From the IMG/VR virus record IMGVR_UViG_3300032116_001540, positions 1-21,041 of that record: DNA of 21,041 nt; one strand, 5' to 3'. This document shows, in pieces, positions 3,108 through 13,844 of this stretch. Below the pieces are notes generated by a model. That model saw nothing but the letters and a program-made list of their open reading frames with translations, ran no database searches and was not told where the DNA came from. This stretch comes from a virus. Numbering within the stretch: position 1 is the stretch's first letter; the number at the start of each line of letters is the position of its first letter. The position numbers were made by a program, and so were the translations under genes.

Positions 3108-3135
3108 TTGACACAACCATGTAGCGTACTACTAT
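3108..3135 (+). promoter_or_regulatory. Candidate sigma-70 promoter upstream of hsp20
   Basis: TTGACA at 3108-3113 is followed after 16 bases by TACTAT at 3130-3135. The -35 is perfect and the -10 matches four of six consensus bases. Transcription would begin near 3142, at the base of the stem-loop 3140-3162, giving hsp20 a leader of about 80 bases. Confidence 0.4.
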
Positions 3136-3139
3136 TGGG

Positions 3140-3162
3140 TAGACGCTCATGGTGAGTGTCTA
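3140..3162 (+). promoter_or_regulatory. Strong stem-loop at the 5' end of the hsp20 leader
   Basis: TAGACGCTCA (3140-3149) pairs with TGAGTGTCTA (3153-3162) in ten pairs, one of them G-U, around the loop TGG. It is the most stable hairpin in this intergenic region and is not followed by a T run, so it does not look like an intrinsic terminator. At the start of an mRNA it could protect the 5' end from decay. It could also be the processed end of the upstream transcript. Confidence 0.5.
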
Positions 3163-3169
3163 TTGAGTG

Positions 3170-3181
3170 CCACAATTGTGG
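3170..3181. promoter_or_regulatory. Perfect 12-base palindrome CCACAATTGTGG
   Basis: CCACAATTGTGG is self-complementary. It lies between the putative hsp20 promoter and its start codon. A dyad of this size can be a binding site for a dimeric regulator. The half-sites CCACAA and TTGTGG recur as an inverted pair around the -10 of the uvsE promoter (7824-7842). Confidence 0.35.
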
Positions 3182-3203
3182 GCTTAAATAATTTTTATTA
3201 GTC

Positions 3204-3233
3204 AAATTATAACAAGGAGATTGTTATGAATTT
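3204..3233 (+). promoter_or_regulatory. Hairpin enclosing hsp20 Shine-Dalgarno and start codon (possible RNA thermometer)
   Basis: ATAACAA (3209-3215) is the exact reverse complement of TTGTTAT (3221-3227), leaving the Shine-Dalgarno core GGAGA (3216-3220) as the five-base loop. The stem continues as AAATT (3204-3208) with AATTT (3229-3233), G3228 being bulged. The start codon 3226-3228 is therefore within the stem. All but two of the 12 pairs are A-U, so the structure should melt easily. Bacterial small heat-shock genes are often controlled by temperature-sensitive hairpins over the ribosome-binding site; that this one works so is inference. Confidence 0.5.
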
Positions 3234-3714
3234 AATCACTTCTTCACGAAATGGTTCGTCAGTTGCTCCAAGACGAATTGATCTTTTTAGTCAATTAAGC
3301 AAAGAAATTGACAGTGCTGTTAACGAGGTTTTTGGGACGCCTTTTTTTGTTAATGGATTAAAACATAAAGGTTATCCTCTTATGGATGCTGTAAGATTGG
3401 ATGACAGACTAATCTTGCAATATACCGTACCAGGAGTCAGCAAAGAAAATTTATCTGTAGAAATTACAGATGAAAATAATGAAAAGTTATTAACAGTTAG
3501 CGGATTATTAAATAATAAATATCGTTATGACGTCTCAGATTATCAAATCAGAGAATTAAGCGGCCAAGAATTTAGACGAGTTATTCGTTTGCCAGAAGAC
3601 ATAGCAGATGAAGAGCCGACCGTTTCATTACAAGATGGAATACTAAACTTAGAATTTGTACTGAAAAAGAAAGAACAACCTCAGTCTAAAACCAAAAAGT
3701 TGACAATAAGTTAA
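3226..3714 (+). CDS. hsp20: Small heat-shock protein, Hsp20 / alpha-crystallin family
   Basis: An ATP-independent chaperone that binds unfolding proteins in the cytoplasm. The alpha-crystallin domain spans about residues 48-148, from YPLMDAVRLDDRLILQYTVPGVSKENL to the conserved strand DGILNLEF, and the C-terminal tail KKLTIS carries the short hydrophobic motif that docks between subunits. The N-terminal region (FSQLSKEIDSAVNEVFG) is the variable arm. At 162 aa it is full length. AAGGAG precedes ATG 3226 by about six bases, inside the hairpin described at 3204-3233. Phage Hsp20 genes are known, notably in T4-like marine phages, where they are thought to help capsid or scaffold folding. Codon use is less AT-biased than in the glycan cluster. 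Confidence 0.93.
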   Translation: MNLITSSRNGSSVAPRRIDLFSQLSKEIDSAVNEVFGTPFFVNGLKHKGYPLMDAVRLDDRLILQYTVPGVSKENLSVEITDENNEKLLTVSGLLNNKYRYDVSDYQIRELSGQEFRRVIRLPEDIADEEPTVSLQDGILNLEFVLKKKEQPQSKTKKLTIS

Positions 3715-3722
3715 TTAAAGGC

Positions 3723-3751
3723 TTGACAGGATAGTGTCGATAGTGTATCAT
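3723..3751 (+). promoter_or_regulatory. Sigma-70 promoter
   Basis: TTGACA (3723-3728), a 17-base spacer and TATCAT (3746-3751) form a near-consensus promoter just after the hsp20 stop. AAGGAG and the ATG at 3775 follow at once, so the leader is short. The spacer contains CGAT at 3738-3741, an element also seen in promoters at 7808, 9912, 11254 and 12574. Confidence 0.75.
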
Positions 3752-3774
3752 AGCGTTTTACACAAGGAGACTCT

Positions 3775-4050
3775 ATGAACACTATTGACGCTATTTGGAC
3801 TATTCAAAATGCTTTGGTTGAAAAAGACCATGCAATTAAGAATATGGAAGAAAGAAACTCTGTTCTTACAAAGGTTCTTGCTACAGTCAGAACAAATTTG
3901 GAACGTGCGATCAAGGGTCATATTCCTTTAAATCAAGCAGTATACGATGCTGTTGACCTTTGCAGAGCAAACTTTAAATATATGGACTACAGTTCGGGTC
4001 AAACTAAACAAGACCCTCCACTAACAGAATCAGAAAAGATTTTACCATGA
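3775..4050 (+). CDS. Hypothetical helical protein, 91 aa
   Basis: First gene behind the promoter at 3723, with AAGGAG five bases before the ATG. The product starts MNTIDAIWTIQNALVEKDH and is mostly charged amphipathic helix up to about residue 50 (KNMEERNSVLTKVLATVRTN), suggesting a coiled coil. The tail is polar and Pro-containing. No known domain is recognised. It ends in an ATGA junction with the next gene (4047). Confidence 0.65.
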   Translation: MNTIDAIWTIQNALVEKDHAIKNMEERNSVLTKVLATVRTNLERAIKGHIPLNQAVYDAVDLCRANFKYMDYSSGQTKQDPPLTESEKILP

Positions 4051-12601: not shown

Positions 12602-12632
12602 GGACTCAGGACAGGTTTGATCTTTACAATAT

Positions 12633-12708
12633 GGGGCGGAAGGTAAGCCGGTAGCATCCGATACTCTTATAAGGTATTCATAGGTAGGTTCGACTCCTAC
12701 TCGCCCTA
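12633..12708 (+). tRNA. tRNA-Ile with anticodon UAU
   Basis: A 76-base cloverleaf. Acceptor GGGGCGG (12633-12639) pairs with TCGCCCT (12701-12707), with G-U at both ends, and A12708 is the discriminator. The anticodon stem ATACT/GGTAT encloses the seven-base loop CTTATAA (12666-12672), with anticodon TAT at 12668-12670 and A37. The T arm is GTAGG, TTCGACT, CCTAC. The D arm contains GGT but pairs poorly (two clear pairs). UAU reads AUA, normally handled by a CAU tRNA with lysidine, so it would suit AUA-rich phage genes. CCA is not encoded. The weak D arm leaves some doubt about function. Confidence 0.75.
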
Positions 12709-12780
12709 TTATACTTGCTTTTGATGAAAGAAGAACTATTATATCATGAACAGTAATCCTATACAAAACAAGGAAAGTTT

Positions 12781-13487: not shown

Positions 13488-13842
13488 GGGCGAGAAAAGG
13501 TTTCGACTACATAAAGAAGATTATATTGGCAAGTAGAAGTTGATCTGGAGGCTTCTTTAAAACCAGATTAAACGCTTTAACTGGCGAAACTCAGTTAGCA
13601 CTTGCTGCCTAACTAAAACGGGCAGTAACGGACTGCGATTGCGAATGAGGGTAGCGATCAAAAGTCTGTCGTCAAATCCCTCTGCACTTACAATATCCAA
13701 CGGGTTGTAGGTTAAGAGCAGTTGGTAAGATGAGATTAGTCTTGTTTATTCTGTACTCTCATTTAATTTATGAATAAAATAAACTTGTAGAAGATATGAT
13801 TTGAAATATGATAGGACAGGGGTTCGACTCCCCTCTCGTCCA
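13488..13842 (+). ncRNA. ssrA: tmRNA (ssrA), one-piece, tag ALTGETQLALAA
   Basis: Rescues stalled ribosomes by trans-translation with SmpB. The ends pair as GGGCGAG (13488-13494) with CTCGTCC (13835-13841) and keep G3-U70 (G13490 with T13839), the alanine identity pair; A13842 is the discriminator and the T arm is AGGGG, TTCGACT, CCCCT. CTACA/TGTAG (13507, 13786) closes helix 2. PK1 is AGAAG/CTTCT crossed with ATCTGG/CCAGAT (13535-13568). PK2 is CGGACT/AGTCTG crossed with GAGGG/CCCTC (13629-13682). The resume codon GCT at 13574 has the expected A at -4, and the tag ends at TAA 13610-13612. The genome has CTA where CCA would be. It fits between two reading frames with no spacer. Confidence 0.96.
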
Positions 13843-13844
13843 CT

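Follow-up and report, generated by a model that had tools for sequence, protein, structure and literature searches.

Can a phage-borne hsp20 gene sense heat through its own mRNA, and if so, which part of the leader would do the sensing? The question arises from an AU-rich hairpin over the start of hsp20 in the window, that is, the whole virus record of 21,041 bases (30% G+C) that was analyzed, in which an earlier reading of the sequence alone had seen a candidate phage RNA thermometer. The ThyX protein encoded in the window is about 70% identical to the ThyX of T4-like cyanophages, and the phage also encodes a tmRNA (positions 13488-13843; tag GETQLALAA) and a tRNA-Ile with the anticodon TAT (12632-12709). 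The features of the hsp20 locus that carry the argument are the following:

3108-3135, plus strand: sigma-70-like promoter, TTGACA-N16-TACTAT, called from 10/12 matches and its arrangement in orthologues
3140-3162, plus strand: hairpin H0, UAGACGCUC-AUG-GUGAGUGUCUA, which folds in the window and in most close orthologues
3163-3187, plus strand: hairpin H1, UUGAGU-G-CCAC-AAUU-GUGG-GCUUAA, with a bulged G at 3169, from RNAalifold, covariation and covariance model R2
3204-3233, plus strand: hairpin H3, AU-rich, with the Shine-Dalgarno (SD) core in the loop and the AUG in the stem, from folding, comparison of 13 leaders and a background of 315 starts
3214-3219, plus strand: SD sequence of hsp20, AAGGAG, from the sequence, with the ATG at 3226
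3226-3714, plus strand: hsp20, a small heat-shock protein of 162 aa (PF00011, E 4.6e-10; phrog_432)

Neither the whole window Hsp20 as a single-protein query nor its alignment with distant phage Hsp20 proteins retrieved usable viral relatives. Orthologues in other phage contigs of IMG/VR, with 52-57% identity to the window protein, were recovered with a chimaeric 58-residue query of the best-conserved Hsp20 stretches followed by an alignment query, and from these we assembled a set of 13 distinct orthologous hsp20 leaders, the window included. One of these records, L097, has hsp20 at apparently the same locus, 5' of thyX (77% identical) and of a homologue of g5056 (45% identical). The gene is missing in all 19 of the closest relatives (L002-L020) between the homologues of g2733 (or g2516) and g3775, and several of these have instead a GC-rich hairpin directly 5' of the g3775 promoter. 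The notion of a recent insertion of hsp20 was softened on account of L097, and with hsp20 at seemingly the same locus in that record, loss of the gene in the 19 relatives is as likely as recent insertion in the window lineage.

The AU-rich hairpin over the hsp20 start

Folding of the hsp20 start recovered H3 (AAATT-ATAACAA-GGAGA-TTGTTAT-g-AATTT) just where the sequence-only reading had placed it, with the GGAG of the SD unpaired in a five-base loop (GGAGA) and the AUG paired in the stem. The best predicted fold replaces the seven pairs, bulged G and five further pairs of the original description with an uninterrupted stack of nine, in which 3207-3215 lies opposite 3221-3229 and the G of the AUG takes part in a U-G wobble. 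The expectation that a stem made nearly entirely of A-U pairs should melt at modest temperature is not borne out by the calculations, which give the local stem -10.3, -6.6, -5.5, and -3.8 kcal/mol at 20, 37, 42, and 50 C, respectively, and leave the AUG about 94% paired at 42 C. The calculated cost of opening the start region falls by about 3.4 kcal/mol, from 9.1 kcal/mol at 20 C to 5.7 kcal/mol at 42 C, which is similar to the fall from 10.1 to 5.8 kcal/mol over the same range in the ROSE-like leader of cyanophage S-SCSM1; such a slope is not specific to a thermometer because any AU hairpin weakens with warming.

A background of 315 SD-bearing starts from related phage contigs places H3 among the most stable 7.6%. 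Among the 132 starts of equal AT content, a single one matches the stability of H3, and this position in the top 1% of such starts argues against regarding the hairpin as a meaningless by-product of AT-richness. The alternative to which that view belongs, in which H0 and H1 would protect the 5' end of the mRNA or set its start and the leader would sense no heat at all, strikes us as tenable, if on the doubtful side. It is favored by the recurrence of the same layout, SD in the loop and AUG in the stem, at seven further background starts and by the lack of covariation and of class-wide strength in the SD hairpin. Taken as a class, the hsp20 starts of the 13 leaders do not exceed the 315 other starts in structure (Mann-Whitney p 0.47), and a strong H3 is confined to the window and L097, the hairpin being weaker or absent in the other orthologues. 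In L097, the SD hairpin is retained with a seven-base loop and has one pair broken without compensation. Compensatory changes in homologous leaders, whose absence the sequence-only reading had itself named as a refutation, do not exceed those in shuffles for H3 across the 13 leaders, its count of two-sided pairs being matched or exceeded in 490 of 500 shuffles. An exact search of IMG/VR with the H3 sequence returned no match.

The 5' arm of H3 contains a UAAY segment for which 9 of the 13 leaders possess a partner farther upstream (GUUA/UAAC, with a compensatory change to AUUA/UAAU in two of them), and in most of those nine, the segment is predicted to pair with it. Across the 13 leaders, UAAY is predicted to be fully paired around the SD only in the window and L097 and to be mixed in L088 and L094. 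The leader could accordingly be conceived as a switch, with UAAY pairing either with a partner upstream, which frees the SD (GUUA-H2-UAAC), or with one downstream, which cages it (UAAC-GGAG-GUUA), and the window lineage having kept the caged form only; L088 and L094 are indeed predicted to populate both forms. We consider this highly improbable, as only one pair covaries, L101 and L104 are devoid of the downstream partner, the window and L097 are devoid of the upstream one, and no single sequence other than those of L088 and L094 is a strong two-state switch. A thermometer function of the SD hairpin H3 is plausible but unproven, and we would place it a little below an even chance.

The additional claim that other AAGGAG starts in the window are free of such a hairpin fails for the very next gene, the start codon region of which (start at 3775) constitutes the 3' arm of a long inverted repeat (window 3723-3796; -34.6 kcal/mol at 37 C). 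The 5' arm of this repeat is overlapped by a sigma-70-like promoter, TTGACA-N17-TATCAT. The inverted-repeat fold is kept in L013, L015, and L017, where the arms pair better with their own partners than after swapping (permutation p 0.009). A read-through mRNA would hide the 3775 start, and an mRNA made from the gene's own promoter would be without the 5' arm. The starts of T4 late genes are masked in early mRNA by a hairpin inside which the late promoter lies; the arrangement at 3775 is the mirror image of this scheme. The window and the T4 late genes have in common a start codon held in a hairpin in a T4-like phage; unlike in the T4 genes, the predicted promoter in the window lies upstream, such that the whole hairpin is transcribed.

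A bulged-G hairpin upstream in the leader

The sole helix that RNAalifold returned from the alignment of the 13 orthologous leaders is H1, a hairpin that the first reading had not flagged. Across these leaders, 96.9% of the H1 cells are paired, as opposed to 23-47% in slid controls, and 8 of its 10 pairs show two-sided changes; G3169 is both bulged and invariant. H1 is an evolutionarily preserved RNA element of the hsp20 leader and is kept by selection. A covariance model of H1, R2, was built from the same 13 leaders, and its matches to them arise by construction. On the window, its only significant match is the H1 site (E 4.4e-9), and in 12 of the 13 hsp20-bearing records, which range from 18 to 224 kb, it gives one significant match per record, at the hsp20 leader (E 4e-9 to 2e-5). 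The record that it missed is L098, the hairpin of which has a mismatch beside the bulge. R2 found no further significant match in the rest of the hsp20-bearing genomes (best second E 0.016) and none in related genomes without hsp20 (best 0.06); H1 is restricted to hsp20 leaders. Rfam searches of the window and the orthologue leaders returned nothing relevant, and weak matches to DUF2815, STnc370, and similar families were dismissed as chance.

In most orthologues, a TTGACA...TATACT/TATTAT arrangement lies directly 5' of H0, the counterpart of the window promoter that scores 10/12 in a scan that overall gave no more matches than it gave in shuffles. Hairpin H0 itself folds in most close orthologues from different sequence. 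With a promoter-like site so close on its 5' side in most orthologues, H0 is probably the structure with which the hsp20 mRNA begins, and we infer a transcript start just before it, from 3136-3140.

This geometry bears on the alternative in which H0 and H1 merely protect the mRNA or set its start. It is congenial to that alternative that H0 begins at the predicted transcription start and that hairpin I of the bacterial short ROSE elements does not melt and is suspected to be an mRNA stabilizer (PMC3669281). An invariant bulged G and a fixed Y-G-CC/GG-R core would, however, be superfluous in a plain protector, and in the cyanophage leaders examined, the same type of hairpin comes with a partner that pairs with the SD.

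Hairpins that bind proteins typically combine a covarying stem and an invariant bulged purine with a loop of unconstrained sequence, and H1 fits this type. H1 might be a binding site for Hsp20 itself or for a phage repressor such as RegA that controls hsp20 translation, with heat entering via the protein only, and it is in keeping with this that hsp20 lies directly 3' of regA in several cyanophages. Nevertheless, we regard a protein site as unlikely: H1 ends about 38 bases 5' of the AUG rather than lying over the start, and there is no regA among the scanned open reading frames beside the window hsp20.

A further interpretation takes H1 together with a U-rich stretch to terminate or attenuate transcription arriving from the gene upstream of hsp20. 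In the window, AUAAUUUUUAUU follows H1 on its 3' side, and U-rich sequence is present in several orthologues. This would be very surprising, since a terminator scan found none at H1, a negative result on which H1 as a terminator was rejected; moreover, L097, L101, and L104 have H1 without the U-run, and the promoter-like site upstream would place H1 inside the hsp20 transcript.

ROSE-like leaders of cyanophages

A cyanophage Hsp20 is matched by 505 phage records, about 460 of which are cyanophages. The cyanophage hsp20 leaders contain two hairpins, the first with a bulged G and the second pairing with the SD. In hairpin I, the bulged G is situated between a pyrimidine-purine pair and CC/GG, and the outer stem covaries strongly, with two-sided changes (UGUC/GACA, GGAU/GUCC, GUAC/GUAC, and GAAU/GUUC). 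Hairpin II takes the form CUC-G-CUU/AAG-GAG in most leaders, likewise with a bulged G; 98.8% of its cells are paired, and it is mostly invariant. The cyanophage leaders hence display the configuration by which ROSE-like elements are recognized, namely, two hairpins, with a bulged G in the second and YGCU paired there to the SD.

A covariance model of these two hairpins, R1, detects held-out cyanophage leaders with E values of 6e-16 to 2e-4, and in 10 of 11 whole genomes, its only significant match lies at the hsp20 leader. The Rfam ROSE_3 model (RF02523) aligned full-length to the S-SCSM1 leader with 24.8 bits, the best score obtained and short of the gathering cut-off of 43, and its best genome-wide match falls at the hsp20 leader in 3 of 14 genomes (E 6e-4, 0.014, and 0.054). 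From such sequence comparisons, ROSE-type sensors seem to be standard 5' of hsp20 in cyanophages. In full-text literature searches, no account of a cyanophage hsp20 RNA thermometer came to light, and the two papers on cyanophage small heat-shock proteins make no mention of thermometers or untranslated regions. The cyanophage leaders (L024, L025, L106-L115, L118, and L120-L199) are usually preceded by TATAATTA or TTAAATA, which are late-promoter-like and lie where the leader starts. In a different lineage, the Pseudomonas jumbo phage Deifobo (L119, about 252-310), inspection by eye revealed a bulged-G hairpin and UCUUGCG...AAGGAG 5' of hsp20; R1 gave no score on this leader.

The Y-G-CC/GG-R core around the bulge is common to H1 of the window clade and hairpin I of the cyanophages. 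MAFFT could not register hairpin I across the two clades, and the comparison was therefore made with separate models and a structural parse. A bulged-G hairpin score of at least 9 was attained by 11 of 13 window-clade leaders and 52 of 56 leaders from cyanophages and other phages, compared with 24 of 436 other starts and 8 of 520 shuffled leaders. In cyanophage loci, 7 of 17 weak R2 matches fall exactly on hairpin I, none of them significant (best there E 0.19). Common descent of H1 and the ROSE/cyanophage hairpin I is likely rather than proven because the R2 matches are nonsignificant and any hairpin model favors stable hairpins.

Like ROSE elements with their hairpin I, the window leader possesses a stable upstream hairpin, H1. 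The ROSE motif U(U/C)GCU (YGCU) was not found between 3188 and 3215, and neither R1 nor Rfam ROSE_3 matched the window leader; therefore, we do not file it as a ROSE element by class, and it may work like one. Where cyanophages have the ROSE hairpin II, the window has H3, without the features of hairpin II. The window leader is best read as a descendant or a functional analogue of a ROSE-like leader in which the ROSE SD hairpin has been replaced with a plain AU hairpin. The original suggestion of a phage RNA thermometer thus survives for the leader as a structured RNA akin to bacterial heat sensors, as seen in H1 and the ROSE-like leaders of cyanophages, and falls for H3 as a conserved element.

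A proposed mechanism and its relation to known thermometers

Under the mechanism that we favor, the 5' untranslated region of hsp20 would be a structured RNA of about 87 bases, of which H3 is one piece. Transcription would start just before H0 (3140), H0 and H1 would fold first, and the last part of the leader would fold over the start codon afterwards. H1 would be the counterpart, in layout, of hairpin I in the two-hairpin ROSE-like leaders of cyanophages and might act as a stable scaffold or as a protector of the mRNA, as proposed for the bacterial hairpin I. In the window and its syntenic neighbor L097, the place of hairpin II would have been taken by a simple AU stem, which involves the AUG in pairing and encloses the SD in a loop of five bases in the window and seven in L097. 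Such a leader would most likely restrain hsp20 translation to a moderate degree, and gradually less so as the temperature rises. The proposal as a whole, comprising the structured leader, the retained ROSE-like hairpin I, and the AU cage as a temperature-eased brake, comes in our estimation close to an even chance without reaching it.

More broadly, we tentatively entertain the possibility that a phage-borne thermometer of the ROSE lineage sits on hsp20 in T4-like marine phages and in an unrelated Pseudomonas jumbo phage and that the window branch kept hairpin I and swapped the SD-sensing hairpin for an AU cage. If true, this would mean that RNA thermometers can exchange the half that senses and yet retain the hairpin upstream. 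The hosts of cyanophages are the most abundant photosynthetic cells in the sea, and hsp20 is carried by many of these phages; if a ROSE-type leader ties its translation to temperature, the phage chaperone supply would respond directly to warming, without a host regulator. In the window family, the bulged-G hairpin occurs separately from the usual SD hairpin, which renders the role of the upstream hairpin in ROSE-type leaders testable.

RNA thermometers are already known in phage genomes, as exemplified by the FourU thermometer of blyA from prophage SPbeta (PMC10586365) and a phage thermometer found with Robo-Therm (PMC11182007), neither of which is on hsp20. The FourU pairing, UUUU with the AGGA of the SD, is not seen in the window leader, where the SD core is unpaired in the loop. 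The hsp17 thermometer of Synechocystis, which pairs AGGA with UCCU, contains an internal loop and has an apparent Tm of 46 C (PMC4477652), shares with the window a small heat-shock gene and a hairpin at the start codon. In this single-hairpin type, SD and start codon are both trapped and the apparent melting falls in the physiological range; the window has a trapped AUG and a looped SD core. Its stem, with a calculated -3.8 kcal/mol remaining at 50 C, would be too stable to melt below that temperature, but the calculated cost of opening does drop by about 3.4 kcal/mol between 20 and 42 C. In the short ROSE-like thermometers of Pseudomonas ibpA, hairpin II melts and hairpin I does not, and the purpose of the upstream hairpin is not fully understood (PMC3669281). 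The phage leaders differ from ibpA and RF02523 in being phage-borne and below the Rfam cut-off, and the window clade differs further in its lack of a ROSE-type hairpin II, the SD core being unpaired in the loop and the AUG paired. What they share with these bacterial elements is an arrangement of two hairpins 5' of a small heat-shock gene, with a stable hairpin I. In the cyanophages, hairpin II likewise pairs the SD with YUYGCUU and has a bulged G, and hairpin I is nearly identical to the bulged-G hairpin I of the RF02523 consensus (GGGAU-G-CC...GG-GUC).
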